From: a virus
DNA: 20,658 nt
Reading direction: 5' to 3' (one strand)
IMG/VR virus record: IMGVR_UViG_3300038548_000834
Span: 1-20,658 of that record
The position numbers were made by a program, and so were the translations under genes. Under the pieces are notes generated by a model, which did no database searches, was not told the DNA's origin, and saw only the letters and a program-made list of their open reading frames with translations. Of the stretch, positions 5,154 to 19,562 are shown piece by piece; position 1 is the stretch's first letter; the number at the start of each line of letters is the position of its first letter.

Positions 5154-5171
5154 AATAATACTCCTATTGTG

Positions 5172-5189
5172 GGGGGGGATATCCCCCCC
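5172..5189 (-). repeat. Perfect G7-ATAT-C7 palindrome between two structural genes
   Basis: The plus strand reads seven G, ATAT, seven C (with an eighth G at 5171), in an otherwise AT-rich region. On the minus-strand transcript it would form a very stable hairpin just before the AGGAG site of the 125-aa gene and just after the 320-aa gene stops. No T-run follows, so it looks like an mRNA stability or translation-lowering hairpin rather than a classical terminator. Confidence 0.6.
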
Positions 5190-5210
5190 AATTTAATGTT
5201 AATTATGGTT

Positions 5211-8642: not shown

Positions 8643-10280
8643 CTAAAATCTTGGTGGCAATCCCATTCCAGGTGCACCCGGTGAAAATGTATTCTTTTCA
8701 TCATTTGATTCTTCGGCTATAACACATTCTGTTGTTAAAAGTAGGCCAGCAATAGAAGCAGCATTTTGCAACGCAATTGTAACCACTTTTACTGGATCTT
8801 TTATCCCATCTTCTAACATATTTACGAATTCTCCGGTAGAAGCATTAAAGCCAGTAACATCATCGTCAAAACCTTCGATTGCATTAATAATAACTGAACC
8901 TTCAAATCCTGCATTTTCAACAATCAATCTCAATGGTTCTTCTAGAGCTTTCAATACAATTTGGTAACCAAGCCCCTCATCTCCGGAAGGTTTATCTTTT
9001 GCTATATAATCAGCTGCCTTTAGCAAAGAAAGTCCTCCTCCTGGAACTACACCGCATTCTACTGCTGCTCTAGTTGCATGAAGAGCATCTTCTGCCCGAT
9101 CTTTTTTTTCTTTCATTTCTGTTTCAGAAACTGCTCCAATTTTTATTACAGCAACACCACCAGAAAGTTTTGCAATTCTTTCTTTTAGTTTTTCTTTATC
9201 GTAATCGGATTCAGAAAATTCAACTTGGGCTTTTAAAGTATTTATTCTTAATTCTATATCTTCACCTCTACCCATTCCATCAACAATAACGGTAGAATCT
9301 GATTTTACAACTACCTTTTTTGCAGAACCAAAATCATCTTCTACAACAGACTCTAAAGTTCTTCCGATATCTTCAGATATAAGTTTACCGCCAGTTAAAA
9401 TAGCGATATCAGATAAGATTCTTTTTTGTCTATCACCAAATCCAGGAGCTTTAATAGCCATCACATTTAAAGATCCCCTCATTTTATTTACAACAAGGGT
9501 AGTTAATGCGTCACCACAAATATCTTCTGCAATAATCAATAATGGTTTGCCAGATCTAGCAGATTTTTCTAATATCGGAAGCAATGGTTTAATCGTAGAT
9601 ATTCGTTTGTCATATAAAAGAATATTCGGATCAGATAATTCTGATTTGCGTGAAGTTTTTTCATTAAATAAATATGGAGAAACTGAACCGTTTTCAAAGT
9701 TCATGCCTTTAACCACATCAGTAGAACTTTCAACCCCTTGTGCTTCTTCGACAGTAACAACTCCATCTTTACCGACAGTATATACAGCTTTTGCAATCTG
9801 TGCCCCGATAATTCTATCTCCATTTGCAGAAATAGTTGCTATTTGGATCATATCTTCTATACCAGAAACAGAAATCGCTCTCTCATTAATATAATCAATA
9901 GCATTTTTAACAGCCATATCAATTCCGCGCTTAAGTTCCATTGGATTTGCACCAGAAACTACATATTTATTCCCCTCGTAGAAAATTGATTTTGCTAAAA
10001 CGGTAGCAGTAGTTGTCCCATCCCCCGAAACATTTGCTGTTTTGTGAGCAACTTCGTTTATCATTTGAGCACCAATTTCTTCAAAAGGATCATTTAAATG
10101 AATCGCCTTAGAAACAGTCGCACCATCTTTTGTTATTACTGCTGATTCAAACTGTTTACCCAATACAACATTTCTTCCACACGGACCCAATGTAACCTGA
10201 ACAGCACTTGCCAATTTTTCAACCCCTACACCGATTCTTTGACGAGCATCAAATCCGAATAGTATCTCTTTCCCAGCCAT
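8643..10280 (-). CDS. groEL: Phage-encoded chaperonin GroEL, 545 aa
   Basis: Full-length type I chaperonin, collinear with bacterial GroEL (548 aa in E. coli). Nucleotide-site motifs are intact: TLGP at 30-33, Asp52 in ITKDG, GDGTTT at 86-91, Asp398 in RAEDALHATRAAVE, GGG near 414-416, and Asp495. Apical substrate-binding positions are mostly kept (Tyr203, Leu234, Leu237, Leu259, Val263, Val264) but Tyr199 is Ser and Phe204 is Leu. Lys34 next to the phosphate loop is Cys. The tail ends GAPGMGLPPRF and lacks the GGM repeats. Two ATGs compete; the second, at 10280, has AGGAG six bases upstream and gives MAGKEILFG, so it is chosen. It follows groES by 44 bases and lies among head genes, suggesting it folds capsid or other virion proteins in the host cytoplasm. 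Confidence 0.97.
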   Translation of the reverse strand: MAGKEILFGFDARQRIGVGVEKLASAVQVTLGPCGRNVVLGKQFESAVITKDGATVSKAIHLNDPFEEIGAQMINEVAHKTANVSGDGTTTATVLAKSIFYEGNKYVVSGANPMELKRGIDMAVKNAIDYINERAISVSGIEDMIQIATISANGDRIIGAQIAKAVYTVGKDGVVTVEEAQGVESSTDVVKGMNFENGSVSPYLFNEKTSRKSELSDPNILLYDKRISTIKPLLPILEKSARSGKPLLIIAEDICGDALTTLVVNKMRGSLNVMAIKAPGFGDRQKRILSDIAILTGGKLISEDIGRTLESVVEDDFGSAKKVVVKSDSTVIVDGMGRGEDIELRINTLKAQVEFSESDYDKEKLKERIAKLSGGVAVIKIGAVSETEMKEKKDRAEDALHATRAAVECGVVPGGGLSLLKAADYIAKDKPSGDEGLGYQIVLKALEEPLRLIVENAGFEGSVIINAIEGFDDDVTGFNASTGEFVNMLEDGIKDPVKVVTIALQNAASIAGLLLTTECVIAEESNDEKNTFSPGAPGMGLPPRF

Positions 10281-10286
10281 GAACAT

Positions 10287-10291
10287 CTCCT
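10287..10291 (-). promoter_or_regulatory. Shine-Dalgarno site fixing the groEL start
   Basis: AGGAG on the minus strand overlaps an upstream ATG and stands six bases before the ATG at 10280, which matches the usual MAxKE beginning of GroEL. Confidence 0.65.
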
Positions 10292-10324
10292 AAAATGAAA
10301 TTTATTTATTTATTCAATTATAAA

Positions 10325-10621
10325 TTACTTATTGTAAACTGTACGACCCAATACTTCGGCTTCCCCTACAACAACCCTAGTATCATCAATACTAATTCCA
10401 GCGTAATCTGCACAAACAACAAAGTCTCCAGACTTTATCAACAATGGAACAATCTTGCCGTCAGTCATCAATCGACCACATCCAACTGCTAAAACTTTAA
10501 ATATTCTTGATTTGCCTTCTTCACTACCAGTAAGAACAATGCCTGAAGCAGTTTCTTTGTTTTTTAGCGGCAATTTCTCCACTAAAATTTTATCATATAA
10601 AGGAATAATATTATTTTCCAT
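10325..10621 (-). CDS. groES: Phage-encoded co-chaperonin GroES, 98 aa
   Basis: Complete GroES of normal length (97 aa in E. coli). It starts IIPLYDKILVEKL, has the mobile loop at about residues 18-34 with the conserved hydrophobic tripeptide Ile-Val-Leu (28-30) that contacts GroEL, then KVLAVGCGR, a roof region, and the GDFVV strand. The order groES-groEL is the bacterial one, with 44 bases between. GGGAAAG precedes the ATG. As lid of the chaperonin cavity it would work with the adjacent GroEL; unlike T4 gp31, which borrows host GroEL, this phage supplies both partners. Confidence 0.96.
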   Translation of the reverse strand: MENNIIPLYDKILVEKLPLKNKETASGIVLTGSEEGKSRIFKVLAVGCGRLMTDGKIVPLLIKSGDFVVCADYAGISIDDTRVVVGEAEVLGRTVYNK

Positions 10622-16108: not shown

Positions 16109-16558
16109 TTAATCCTCATTGCAAATTTTACGAAGGTAAAACTCTGTTCTTGGGTTAGTGCTATACTTTTTTATGGCATGGCATTCGACAATTAGCTTAT
16201 CATCAGTATATAAGATACCACAACAGGCATCTTCTACAAATTTAATTAAATTACTTAGATCTGGTTTAATGTGATGACAATCTTCGGGAAAAACTTTTTT
16301 TCTCTTTGATACAGGTATTCTCATATGAAAATCAACAAATAAGACCAAGGGACAAGATAGTGCATCTTGATTAATGGATGGCATTTGTGCTTGTACACGC
16401 ATGGCCCATATCCTCTTATCTGCTTTTTGCGAGTCATACACCCCTGTTTTACAAAACCTTGGTCTTTGAAGCGGTATAGGGTTCCCTAGGACTACATATG
16501 TTACTTCGGACAAGCACTTATTCTTTTTCTCTGGTTTTTTTATCTCTTTTGTTATCAT
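16109..16558 (-). CDS. rusA: RusA-family Holliday junction resolvase, 149 aa
   Basis: RusA enzymes are dimeric nucleases that cut four-way junctions, here probably to remove branches before packaging. The protein has the family start VVLGNPIPLQRPR (about 22-34), then VDFHMRIPV, and the signature IKPDLSNLIKFVEDACCGIL followed by TDDKLIVE (about 98-125). The signature normally reads KPDxDN: the second aspartate is Ser here, while the first Asp and the DD pair remain, so activity is not certain. The ATG at 16558 lies within the end of the winged-helix gene (41-base overlap), with a weak GGAAA site upstream. Position before the terminases fits a processing role. Confidence 0.85.
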   Translation of the reverse strand: MITKEIKKPEKKNKCLSEVTYVVLGNPIPLQRPRFCKTGVYDSQKADKRIWAMRVQAQMPSINQDALSCPLVLFVDFHMRIPVSKRKKVFPEDCHHIKPDLSNLIKFVEDACCGILYTDDKLIVECHAIKKYSTNPRTEFYLRKICNED

Positions 16559-17345
16559 CGCTTAAGTTTCCAGTTAAAATTTTCGGAATTATAAAGTTAT
16601 TAAGAATTTTTTTAAGAAAGCCGCCTGATTTTTCTGCGATTTTCTTTAACTTAAATAAATTTGTTTTTAGTTTTGGATCATTTTTTATGGTATTGACCGG
16701 CTTAACAATACTTTTTTTTGCCATTAATGTATTCAAATACAATTGATATGTTGTGATTGCTTTCTTTTTTGGGTCTTCAAAGAGTGATTTATGACTTTTA
16801 TTACCGGCCATTCTTTTTTTATATAGAAATAGTTTTTTATTAATCATGATTTCCCTTTTAATTCTCATTTCCAAATTGTTTTTATAAGACAGAATCCTTT
16901 TTTCTATATCACTAATCCCATTTTCTAATATCTTAATATTATTATTCAATACTAGTGTCGCCTTTATAGATAAATACCATAAGTTAGGTATTTTAAATTG
17001 CGTTATCAAAGAAGAAATGCGCTCTCTTGTAGAATAGCTTTTAAAGAACGAACTGACTGAATAAATACAAGACCTTCTATATCGATATACCTTCGCTAAT
17101 ACACCATCTTTACAGAATTTCTTAATGATTTTATTTATGTATTGACGACATACTCCCAACTTCTCAGCCATATGTGACTGGGTAGAATAAATCTTACCAA
17201 CTCTTAAGTCCATCCAAAAGAAATACTTCAGTAATTTAAACTGAGTATCTGTTAGACCACGTAAATACAATTCCGGATCCCTTACAATCTTAATGTTTGG
17301 GATTAAGAAATTTGCTCTTTTTATTTGACTTCTGCGCTTTTTCAT
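16518..17345 (-). CDS. Winged-helix DNA-binding protein, possible replication initiator, 275 aa
   Basis: Residues about 20-100 form a winged-helix domain: LTDTQFKLLKYFFWMDL, then a recognition region STQSHMAEKLGVCRQYINKI, then a wing YRYRRSCIYSV. This arrangement is common in phage and plasmid replication proteins and in regulators. The rest (about 125-275) is very Lys-rich and helical, with no enzyme motif. AAGG stands five bases before the ATG. Four 15-bp tandem repeats and a noncoding region full of hairpins lie immediately upstream, the usual arrangement of an initiator beside its origin, so I infer that role with caution. Extreme Lys/Ile content reflects AT-rich coding. A transcription regulator is the alternative. 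Confidence 0.6.
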   Translation of the reverse strand: MKKRRSQIKRANFLIPNIKIVRDPELYLRGLTDTQFKLLKYFFWMDLRVGKIYSTQSHMAEKLGVCRQYINKIIKKFCKDGVLAKVYRYRRSCIYSVSSFFKSYSTRERISSLITQFKIPNLWYLSIKATLVLNNNIKILENGISDIEKRILSYKNNLEMRIKREIMINKKLFLYKKRMAGNKSHKSLFEDPKKKAITTYQLYLNTLMAKKSIVKPVNTIKNDPKLKTNLFKLKKIAEKSGGFLKKILNNFIIPKILTGNLSDDNKRDKKTREKE

Positions 17346-17398
17346 AATAACCTTTTTTCGTGTAACATTTTTTCGTGTAACATTTTTTTATGTAGCAT
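17342..17398 (-). CDS. Repeat leader peptide overlapping the winged-helix gene start, 18 aa
   Basis: An open frame encodes MLHKKMLHEKMLHEKRLL, i.e. three pentapeptide repeats, and its TGA overlaps the next gene's ATG as ATGA, the classical form of translational coupling. Each repeat is a 15-bp unit, so the frame is kept. No Shine-Dalgarno site is visible before its first ATG (A-rich only), and the AAAGG serving the downstream gene lies inside it. It could instead be a by-product of DNA repeats that act as binding sites. Confidence 0.3.
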   Translation of the reverse strand: MLHKKMLHEKMLHEKRLL

Positions 17399-17413
17399 TT
17401 TTTTATGTTATTA
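17354..17413 (-). repeat. Four tandem 15-bp repeats (iteron-like)
   Basis: On the minus strand, units at 17354-17368 and 17369-17383 are identical (ATGTTACACGAAAAA); the next (17384-17398) is ATGCTACATAAAAAA and the outermost (17399-17413) TAATAACATAAAAAA. They directly precede the winged-helix gene, like iterons before a replication protein gene. Confidence 0.65.
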
Positions 17414-17460
17414 GTGATGTGATTAATTTTTTGCGGAATTTTCCATCCTTTTTTTTAATT

Positions 17461-17595
17461 ATTGATGATTTTATCTATAGCTATTTTCATCAATTAAAAA
17501 TCTTAAGATAATTTTAATTAAGATTTTTTCTATTACATTTCATTTAGAATTTTATTTGGTTCTAAATGAAATGTTTTTAGTCTTACTAAAGACTA
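17461..17595. other. Array of four consecutive hairpins in the smpB/winged-helix gap
   Basis: Four inverted repeats lie end to end: 17461-17468 with 17487-17494 (8 bp); 17496-17506 with 17518-17528 (11 bp, AAAAATCTTAA); 17535-17549 with 17560-17574 (15 bp, 10-base loop, then TTTT on the plus strand); 17578-17584 with 17589-17595 (7 bp, 4-base loop). All are perfect. The remaining noncoding sequence, 17596-17714, has one further 6-bp repeat (17646-17651 with 17663-17668) and no gene. The array could be an origin, a structured RNA, or stacked bidirectional terminators. Confidence 0.6.
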
Positions 17596-17714
17596 CATTA
17601 TTAGCTTTTTCTGGATTTGGCAAGACATTGAATAGATAGCCACTGTCCTAACATCGAGTGATTTAGGAAGTTTTCATTTATTATTGCTGTTATAGCCCCC
17701 TTTTTTTATTGATA

Positions 17715-18176
17715 TTAATAATCATATTTCCCCTTAAGTTCTCTACGCGTTTCTCGTTTAATATCTTTTTCGCGTTGTTCATCTTTTTTTTGATGAATTT
17801 TTTTGTGTTTACACAGTCCAATTTGAACTTTTATAAGACCTCTGGAAAAATAGAGTTTTAAGGGTATTAGCGTAACTCCTTTGCGAGAAATTTCACCAAT
17901 TAAGCGATTTATCTCTTTTCGTTTCATTAAAATTTTACGGGAACGACGACTTTTATCATCATCATGTTTTCTGTCGTATGCGTGGGAATATGGTGAAATA
18001 TGAGCATTTATCATAAATAATTCATTTCCGCGAGAGGTTACAAAAGCTCCAGTTAAATTGCCTTTTCCAGCGCGTAATGATTTAACTTCGTCACCCGTGA
18101 GCACAATACCCCCCTCAACAGTCTTTTCTATAGTATAATCGTGGGATGCTTTTTTATTTTGAGCTATTATTTTCAT
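17715..18176 (-). CDS. smpB: SmpB, tmRNA-binding protein of trans-translation, 153 aa
   Basis: SmpB binds tmRNA and brings it to stalled ribosomes. The protein shows the family beginning NKKASHDYTIEKTVEGGIVL, then TGDEVKSLRAGKGNLTGAFV, INAHISPYSHA, a basic RRSRKILMKRKEI segment, GVTLIPLKLYF, and KVQIGLCKHKKIH near the end of the barrel. The C-terminal tail (from about residue 128) is Lys/Arg/Glu-rich, as needed to enter the ribosomal channel. Length is close to the usual 155-160. The frame reaches a GTG two codons earlier, but the ATG at 18176 gives the more standard start; neither has a clear ribosome site. No tmRNA gene is recognised nearby, so the protein may act on host tmRNA or have another role. 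Confidence 0.92.
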   Translation of the reverse strand: MKIIAQNKKASHDYTIEKTVEGGIVLTGDEVKSLRAGKGNLTGAFVTSRGNELFMINAHISPYSHAYDRKHDDDKSRRSRKILMKRKEINRLIGEISRKGVTLIPLKLYFSRGLIKVQIGLCKHKKIHQKKDEQREKDIKRETRRELKGKYDY

Positions 18177-18197
18177 AGTCACATATATTCTATTTTA

Positions 18198-18413
18198 TTA
18201 TTCCTGTTTCTTTAAAAAATTATAAATTTTCATTATTGTAGTACGCGATGTTCCTCTTCTTTTTTTCAAAAAGTCCCCCGCTACAGTTTCACCAAGTGGA
18301 ACAATTCTAGATATAGCACTCATAGATAATTCATTTTTTAAAGAATATTCTAATAGCAACTCCCTTAAATCATCCACATTCTCTAAATAAAAACCAAACT
18401 TTTTCAAACTCAT
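18198..18413 (-). CDS. Small helix-turn-helix regulator, Cro/CI-like, 71 aa
   Basis: The C-terminal half, LSMSAISRIVPLGETVAGDF followed by LKKRRGTSRTTIMKIYNFL, has the spacing of a lambda-repressor-type helix-turn-helix: two helices with a turn, then the recognition and packing helices. It is the first minus-strand gene at a divergent promoter region, where a phage repressor or Cro gene is expected. AAGGA lies nine bases before the ATG, and the 19-bp inverted repeat just upstream is its likely operator. Sequence match to any named repressor was not recognised, so the regulator role is inference. Confidence 0.55.
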   Translation of the reverse strand: MSLKKFGFYLENVDDLRELLLEYSLKNELSMSAISRIVPLGETVAGDFLKKRRGTSRTTIMKIYNFLKKQE

Positions 18414-18443
18414 AATTTAATATCCTTATAATAAAAACTTACC

Positions 18444-18499
18444 ATATACTTATTATAACATATATATCTATTAAAATCTTTATGTTATAATAAGTATAT
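18444..18499. promoter_or_regulatory. 19-bp inverted-repeat operator between divergent genes
   Basis: Arms 18444-18462 and 18481-18499 are exact reverse complements with an 18-base spacer. Read outward, each arm contains TATAAT (18486-18491 on plus; 18457-18452 on minus), so the repeat overlaps two symmetric -10 boxes. The corresponding -35 positions match consensus poorly, so activation or regulation is likely. It lies 31 bases before the 71-aa regulator gene. Confidence 0.65.
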
Positions 18500-18519
18500 A
18501 ATATTTGAGCTGATATCTA

Positions 18520-18548
18520 TTGACATCTACATTTATATGCATTATAAT
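18520..18548 (+). promoter_or_regulatory. Perfect consensus sigma70 promoter for the early plus-strand operon
   Basis: TTGACA (18520-18525), exactly 17 bases, TATAAT (18543-18548): identical to the bacterial housekeeping consensus in both boxes and spacing. It points into the 104-aa and erf genes with an untranslated leader of roughly 68 bases, in which I see nothing else beyond the ribosome site GGGA before 18623. Confidence 0.8.
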
Positions 18549-18622
18549 ATATATAGAGGTAGTTGATTAAGAACACCGGAATATAAAAAGTATTAAACTT
18601 AAATTTTGATTGGGATCATATA

Positions 18623-18937
18623 ATGGAAAAACTACAAAGAATGAAAGAACTAGAAAGAGTAAAAGAACTAAATGAAGAAAATGAACTACAAAAAATAGAA
18701 GATCTAAAAACCATAGAAGAAATGGGAAAATTAGATAACTTTGAAGCATTTATATTACTTGGCAAAGCACAAAAGCTTTTAATGTATACTATATACGACA
18801 ATGGAGATGCCCTCAAAGGATTAAGACAGGCCCAAGCAATTCTCCTGAAAACTATGACCCCAGATGATAAAGATAGATTAAACAAGGTTAAACCAGGAAT
18901 GTCTGAATTCATTAAAATTTTAAAAGCGGTATATTAA
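18623..18937 (+). CDS. Early protein with N-terminal coiled coil, 104 aa
   Basis: Residues 1-35 form a Glu/Lys/Leu heptad-like helix (RMKELERVKELNEENELQKI). Residues 38-104 form a compact helical domain with AFILLGKAQKLLMYTIYD and LRQAQAILLKT. GGGA precedes the ATG by seven bases. The gene is the first of the operon driven by the consensus promoter and sits one base before erf, so it probably works with recombination or early DNA metabolism; an ERF partner or modulator is a guess from context. No family is recognised. Confidence 0.6.
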   Translation: MEKLQRMKELERVKELNEENELQKIEDLKTIEEMGKLDNFEAFILLGKAQKLLMYTIYDNGDALKGLRQAQAILLKTMTPDDKDRLNKVKPGMSEFIKILKAVY

Positions 18938-18938
18938 T

Positions 18939-19562
18939 ATGAAATCATCTTCTGAAGATCTTAGGGAATTATTTAAAGCTTTAGCAAAAGCACAAAGTGA
19001 TATGGCTGTAGCGTACAAAGAAAACTCTAACCCGTTCTATAAATCAAAATATGCTGATTTCGCTTCTATAATTAAGGCCTCAAGAAAGCATTTATCTAGC
19101 AATGGATTATGTGTTATACAACGAACAATGATAGCGGAAGATAAATCTATGATACTATCAACTGTTTTAGGACATCTTAGTGGACAATGGATTGAAAGTT
19201 TAATAAAAATTAATCCAGTTAAAAGTGATATACAAAGTCTTGGAAGTTATATTACATATTTAAAAAGATACTCATATTCAGCAATAGTTGGTGTTGCAAC
19301 AGATGATGATGATGGAGAAAGCGCTTCAGTTAATCATGGCGTAACAGCCCCGAGACCACCGAGACAGAACACCACAATAACATGCGTATCAGAAGATCAA
19401 CTTGAACAATTAGAATTTGAATTAAGCAGAGAAGACGATCTTAGAAAAGATATTTTAAGCGCTATGAAAATTAGTTCAATTAAACAAATGCCCAAAAAAA
19501 GATTTATGGGTGCTATACAAAGAATCAGAGAAATTAAAAGCAGAAAAAGAAATGCTAACTAA
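18939..19562 (+). CDS. erf: ERF-family single-strand annealing protein, 207 aa
   Basis: ERF proteins anneal complementary single-stranded DNA ends and drive phage recombination and genome circularisation. The family core is present: LFKALAKAQSDM, NPFYKSKYADFASIIKASRK (about 31-50), LSSNGLCVIQ, VLGHLSGQWIES, and the signature SLGSYITYLKRYSYSAIVGV followed by ATDDDDGE (about 101-128). The C-terminal 75 residues are a variable basic tail, usual for the family. The start follows the upstream stop by one base, so translation is probably coupled. Together with the RusA-like resolvase it would supply the recombination branch of phage DNA maturation. Confidence 0.92.
   Translation: MKSSSEDLRELFKALAKAQSDMAVAYKENSNPFYKSKYADFASIIKASRKHLSSNGLCVIQRTMIAEDKSMILSTVLGHLSGQWIESLIKINPVKSDIQSLGSYITYLKRYSYSAIVGVATDDDDGESASVNHGVTAPRPPRQNTTITCVSEDQLEQLEFELSREDDLRKDILSAMKISSIKQMPKKRFMGAIQRIREIKSRKRNAN

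Follow-up and report, generated by a model that had tools for sequence, protein, structure and literature searches.

The hairpins that lie between smpB and a winged-helix gene in this phage probably make up the structured terminal part of a short antisense transcription unit resembling lambda pO-oop-tO, placed at the start of a probable replication initiator gene and probably at the replication origin. The window, by which is meant the whole stretch of viral DNA analysed here, comprises 20,658 bases of a record classed as linear and probably a fragment; the features on which the argument rests are collected in Table 1.

Table 1. Coordinates of features in and around the gap between smpB and the winged-helix gene
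Feature	Position	Strand	Basis or remark
Winged-helix gene, probable O-like replication initiator	16518-17345	-	PHROG_270 replication initiation, E 1.7e-4
Candidate pO-like promoter	17325-17353	+	TTGACT 17325-17330, 17-bp spacer, TAACCT 17348-17353
4.7 copies of a 15-bp tandem repeat, iteron-like (ATGTTACACGAAAAA on the - strand)	17338-17408		Abut the winged-helix gene start
Predicted antisense RNA, ~220 nt	~17360-17580	+	Inferred from promoter and terminator
Hairpin, 8-bp stem	17461-17494	+	Stem search, fold
Hairpin, 11-bp stem, then TTTTTTC on the + strand side	17496-17528	+	Stem search, fold
Hairpin, 15-bp perfect stem (17 with G-U), then T5 on the + strand	17535-17574	+	tO-like intrinsic terminator
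Hairpin, 7-bp stem, past the terminator, no T tract	17578-17595		Stem search, fold
Hairpin, 6-bp stem, holds the proposed CACT/AGTG pseudoknot	17646-17668		Consistent with chance
smpB	17715-18182	-	Pfam SmpB 3.9e-50; first ATG ~18176
Cro-like small HTH gene	18198-18413	-	Homologues upstream of the winged-helix gene in 23/54 members, including the window
Perfect inverted repeat, 19 bp, loop 18, between divergent early operons	18444-18499		Operator-like
ERF recombination gene, divergent PL-like operon	18939-19562	+	Pfam ERF 1.7e-22

Hairpins downstream of smpB

An earlier note on this DNA had described a noncoding gap of about 300 bases holding four perfect hairpins and, beyond them, a further inverted repeat. 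The gap was measured at 369 bp (17346-17714), with no ORF of more than 30 aa wholly within it, and the hairpins were found where they had been placed, the four within 17461-17595 having stems of 8, 11, 15 and 7 bp and the further inverted repeat, at 17646-17668, one of 6 bp. The interval singled out in that note omits two features, the 15-bp tandem repeats at 17338-17408 and a promoter-like site where the winged-helix gene begins. When 17461-17714 was compared with 1000 dinucleotide shuffles of itself, five or more non-overlapping hairpins of at least 6 bp were seen in 0.2% of the shuffles, and a 15-bp stem, or a total of 47 stem bp, in none of the 1000. The RNA fold of 17461-17600 reached a z of -7.5 versus shuffles, and the first four hairpins are thus beyond chance. 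The proposed pseudoknot fared less well: CACT at 17641-17644 is indeed complementary to AGTG at 17657-17660, but the fold of 17600-17714 was matched or beaten by 69 of 200 shuffles (z -0.37), and the pseudoknot was rejected as not rising above chance. No relatives could be aligned to the gap, and a DNA search of the region in phages was empty; SmpB and the winged-helix protein, each used singly as a query, brought up no viral relatives.

A predicted antisense unit facing away from the probable initiator gene

The third hairpin is the only terminator-like site in 16400-19100; it faces the + strand and ends about 135 bp short of smpB. At the other end of the putative unit, the -35 element of the candidate promoter sits in codons 6-7 of the winged-helix gene, and its motif, spacing and position fit those seen in the gene family described below, although the -10 element is weak (p 0.2 for the window promoter alone). 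The predicted RNA would include three of the four hairpins, the last of them being the terminator, and folds with a z of -6.9. In the proposed mechanism, a sigma70-type promoter over the initiator start codon would fire away from the gene on the + strand, and the transcript would copy the iteron-like repeats and the leader before stopping at 17535-17574. The unit would tune replication in one of two ways: transcription arriving from the early promoter would be opposed over the leader and origin, or the antisense RNA would pair with the leader of the initiator. Initiator bound to the iterons would occupy the antisense promoter, which may allow feedback. Production of the RNA, the identity of the repeats as origin iterons and the tuning of replication by the unit are all inferred.

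The winged-helix gene is a probable replication initiator on the strength of weak profile matches; five of seven relatives also match named replication PHROGs (O-like, DnaD-like or initiator), again weakly. A model of the window protein has an N-terminal winged helix with a pLDDT above 90. Its best PDB matches are MarR-type regulators, its viral structure matches include proteins named replication initiator, and the fold alone therefore does not settle function. On the minus strand, the order of genes is a divergent switch region, the Cro-like HTH gene, smpB, the gap, the winged-helix gene, RusA and the packaging genes. This is the gene order of the lambda and P22 early regions, with smpB in place of cII or c1. 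The inverted repeat between the divergent early operons, together with its adjoining promoter, resembles a cro/repressor switch operator. A perfect TTGACA-17-TATAAT lies near this repeat on the + strand (18520-18548), and 18-bp tandem repeats (18630-18721) were observed inside a small coding gene before ERF.

Antisense terminators across the gene family

An ORF profile search yielded 86 loci with the winged-helix gene, which gave 54 non-redundant upstream regions falling into 47 blastn DNA clusters. A lenient scan of the upstream regions found an antisense intrinsic terminator in 40 of 54 (11.5 +/- 2.5 in shuffles) and a sense terminator in 21 of 54 (5.3 in shuffles), a pattern that was first noticed by eye in the same set in which it was later tested. 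Under strict settings, a terminator no more than 400 nt upstream was antisense in 30 of 54 members and sense in 4 of 54; random windows held one in 2.7% (antisense) and 4.8% (sense) of cases, and regions upstream of other genes in the same phages in 0-14%. These counts come from simple scans of relatives that share ancestry, with the comparisons of strand, spacing and control genes serving as internal controls; counted by DNA cluster, the strict terminator was antisense in 26 and sense in 3 of the 47. In lambda, used as a control, the terminator scan recovered tO and nothing else. A cro-like gene lies upstream in the sense orientation in 23 members; of these, 20 carried the antisense terminator and 10 both terminator and promoter, and in relatives with a sense upstream gene the antisense unit does not overlap the cro-like gene. 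Since the predicted RNA stops short of the upstream gene, in the window as in these relatives, a target of the cII type is absent, and the likelier roles are opposition to early transcription or pairing with the leader.

Candidate antisense promoters over the initiator start codon

A first promoter scan, ending at the start codon, gave a weak signal (6/30 at p<0.1). In lambda, pO is placed over the O start codon; the scan was for this reason widened to +60 nt into the gene, whereupon 16 of the 36 members with a terminator reached p<=0.05 on the antisense strand (combined p 1e-15), compared with 2/36 on the sense strand (combined p 0.23). Enrichment was seen only for start sites from -30 to +29 relative to the start codon, as judged against 420 other gene starts and the sense strand, and the scan recovered pO in the lambda control. 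Two further tests are independent of the choice to widen the scan. In the first, TTGAY occurred within the first ~70 coding nt 44 times antisense and 7 times sense (9.3 expected), and TAnnnT followed the antisense TTGAY at a 17-bp spacer in 20 of the 44, other spacings accounting for at most 6 each. In the second, Ser/Arg/Asn-Gln pairs were encoded as AGT/CGT/AAT-CAA in 24 of 36 cases in the first codons and in 30 of 177 later in the gene (p 7e-9), a codon choice pointing to a constraint on the DNA in the first codons of the initiator. By DNA cluster, the TTGAY-17-TAnnnT motif was present antisense in 27/47 and sense in 2/47, over a background of 2.4%. At the level of sequence, then, the analysis shows a terminator and a promoter-like motif, and it shows that both recur in relatives in a strand-specific manner.

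Comparison with lambda and P22

The resemblance to lambda pO-oop-tO lies in a candidate antisense promoter at the initiator start codon, a short unit and a terminator just upstream of the gene, all within an early cro-X-O operon. In lambda, the firing of pO against pR affects replication initiation and the oop RNA acts on cII (PMC3985674, PMC5869508). Lambda oop is 77 nt by its published coordinates, whereas the RNA predicted here would be about 220 nt with extra hairpins; oop overlaps cII, whereas the window unit overlaps no upstream gene; and the lambda iterons lie inside O, whereas the window repeats are upstream of the gene and within the predicted RNA. In P22, oop is annotated at the same place as the window unit, and P22 and prophage BTP1 have the gene order of the window, with erf in the left operon and, in the right operon, cro, a cII-like gene, an antisense oop and an O-like gene (PMC7067206). 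The P22 oop terminator, however, overlaps the end of c1, and no sequence relation to the window region was found. Weighing against an antisense unit in the window are its weak -10 element, the poor yield of the first promoter scan, the origin of the terminator pattern in the very set used to test it, the weak initiator profile matches together with the MarR-type structure matches and, unlike lambda, the missing overlap with an upstream gene.

Alternative explanations for the gap

The earlier note had also considered a replication origin next to its initiator gene, and part of this proposal stood, as the gene matches initiator-family profiles and iteron-like repeats abut it; the region is an origin candidate only, and the hairpins fit an antisense terminator. 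If the gap acted solely as DNA, with iterons for the winged-helix protein, an AT-rich melting zone of hairpins and no small RNA, this would account for the 15-bp repeats adjoining the initiator gene, for the AT-richness of the region and for the enrichment, among relatives, of tandem repeats upstream of this gene (5 of 21 members vs 1.1 expected, P 0.003). It would, however, leave the strand-specific terminator and promoter signals of the relatives unexplained, tandem repeats are found in only those 5 of 21 members, and the annotated origin of both lambda and P22 lies inside the initiator gene. An origin acting as DNA alone was therefore judged unlikely; an origin reading and the antisense unit are mutually compatible. 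In one relative (L040), the gap upstream of the winged-helix gene is filled as far as the start codon by about 12-13 copies of a 21-bp repeat, an extreme form of such iteron-like arrays.

CopA and the ctRNAs are antisense RNAs that control plasmid copy number, and they resemble the predicted RNA in being structured and antisense to the leader of a replication gene. Control of this kind, with hairpins of the antisense RNA pairing with the initiator leader and halting its transcription or translation, would suit an RNA that has several serial hairpins and is fully complementary to the leader, the only cis target since the RNA overlaps no upstream gene. A structured body is, however, not common to the RNAs predicted in relatives, whose bodies do not as a rule fold better than shuffles (mean z about -1), and lambda oop leaves the stability of O-P mRNA unchanged (PMC3985674), so that plasmid-like copy control was considered improbable. 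An equally low probability was given to a terminator and nothing more, which would stop stray antisense transcripts or insulate neighbouring operons and yield no functional RNA. In favour of such an element are the terminator hairpin, whose T tract is on one strand, and the leftward gene that adjoins the gap in some relatives; against it, most DNA clusters have a promoter motif on the same strand at a fixed place over the start codon, and the antisense terminator is kept in 20 of the 23 members whose upstream gene is in the sense orientation.

SmpB and the absence of a tmRNA in the gap

The other proposal of the earlier note, a phage RNA working with SmpB, did not hold up; such an RNA, whether tmRNA-like or of another kind, is very improbable. 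Huge phages are known to encode both tmRNA and SmpB (PMC7162821), and the window shares with the tmRNA (Rfam RF00023) and SmpB system a phage-encoded SmpB and a gap after smpB. In several genomes of Candidatus Dependentiae, ssrA lies directly behind smpB, the very place of the gap, and the tmRNA idea was therefore reasonable by synteny; a GGGGGC is also found close to the expected tmRNA 5' end. The gap differs, however, in having no tmRNA feature. A tRNA-like 3' end or T-loop is absent from it, and the covariance search for a tmRNA or permuted tmRNA that had been named as a check was negative there with Rfam, both at the gathering threshold and at E values up to 10, as was ARAGORN. A profile built from 17 Dependentiae tmRNAs, whose own members score about 290-300 bits, likewise had no match in the gap, and as a positive control a tmRNA scored above the Rfam cut-off in 19 of 20 Dependentiae genomes. 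A reading frame in the gap that looks like a tag was weighed by eye but set aside, because it would be meaningless without a tRNA-like domain. The hairpin layout also occurs in phages that lack smpB, a gene carried by none of 50 relative phage records. It is proposed that smpB was inserted as a passenger between the cro-like gene and the antisense unit.

The window SmpB retains the conserved residues of its family and is 55-65% identical to SmpB of Dependentiae. Since the protein is closest to those of Dependentiae, whose genomes carry ordinary tmRNAs, it presumably works with the host tmRNA. The genome with the closest SmpB (G001, locus L161; 65%) yielded no full tmRNA but only 76-nt tRNA-like matches, along with poor GroEL matches, and may be an incomplete assembly. 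Two viral contigs (L266 and L267) encode, at their ends, SmpB proteins about 48-49% identical to that of the window, and might be closer relatives or bacterial fragments.

Genome setting and likely host

Pfam matches in the window include a P22-like portal, RusA, ERF and SmpB, and GroEL/GroES-like chaperonin genes are also encoded. A large-terminase-like gene, which has no Pfam match, owes its name to gene order and to its 224 viral relatives. The portal and terminase have many relatives in IMG/VR but only distant ones in sequenced phages (20-24% identity for the portal), and the phage belongs to a family far from sequenced phages. A palindrome of 8 bp, nearly pure G/C, lies between two minus-strand structural genes (TGGGGGGGGATATCCCCCCCA at 5170-5190).

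Candidatus Dependentiae are intracellular bacteria of protists. They are the likely host, judging by SmpB and GroEL: the top ~33 genome matches of SmpB (50-65% identity) are nearly all from Candidatus Dependentiae/Babeliales. The phage GroEL/GroES genes lie at 8643-10621, with GroEL at most 60% identical to Dependentiae GroEL; a tblastn search of about 160 relative loci found GroEL in 2 and GroES in 1. No portal relative was found as a sign of a prophage in 20 Dependentiae genomes, and the searches made here found no described phage of Candidatus Dependentiae.

Implications for phage replication control

For a long time, descriptions of oop RNA were confined to the lambdoid phages of enteric bacteria (PMC4933390). 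It has been debated whether the lambda oop promoter serves lysogeny, through cII, or replication (PMC3985674). The recurrence, at sequence level, of an oop-like unit in unrelated phages from the environment, across 47 DNA clusters and with no cII-like gene overlapped, suggests that its role in replication may be the wider one, and this wider role becomes testable. For the phage described here, which probably infects Candidatus Dependentiae, the predicted antisense unit provides a concrete model of early control. It is conceivable, though on balance still doubtful, that a convergent antisense promoter and terminator at the initiator gene is a general control of phage replication, kept across a large environmental family without the cII overlap on which its known role in lambda rests, and grown in the window into a multi-hairpin, plasmid-like control RNA. 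Were the device general, its first duty would be control of the initiator or the origin, with the -35 boxes written into the N-terminal codons of the initiator itself.
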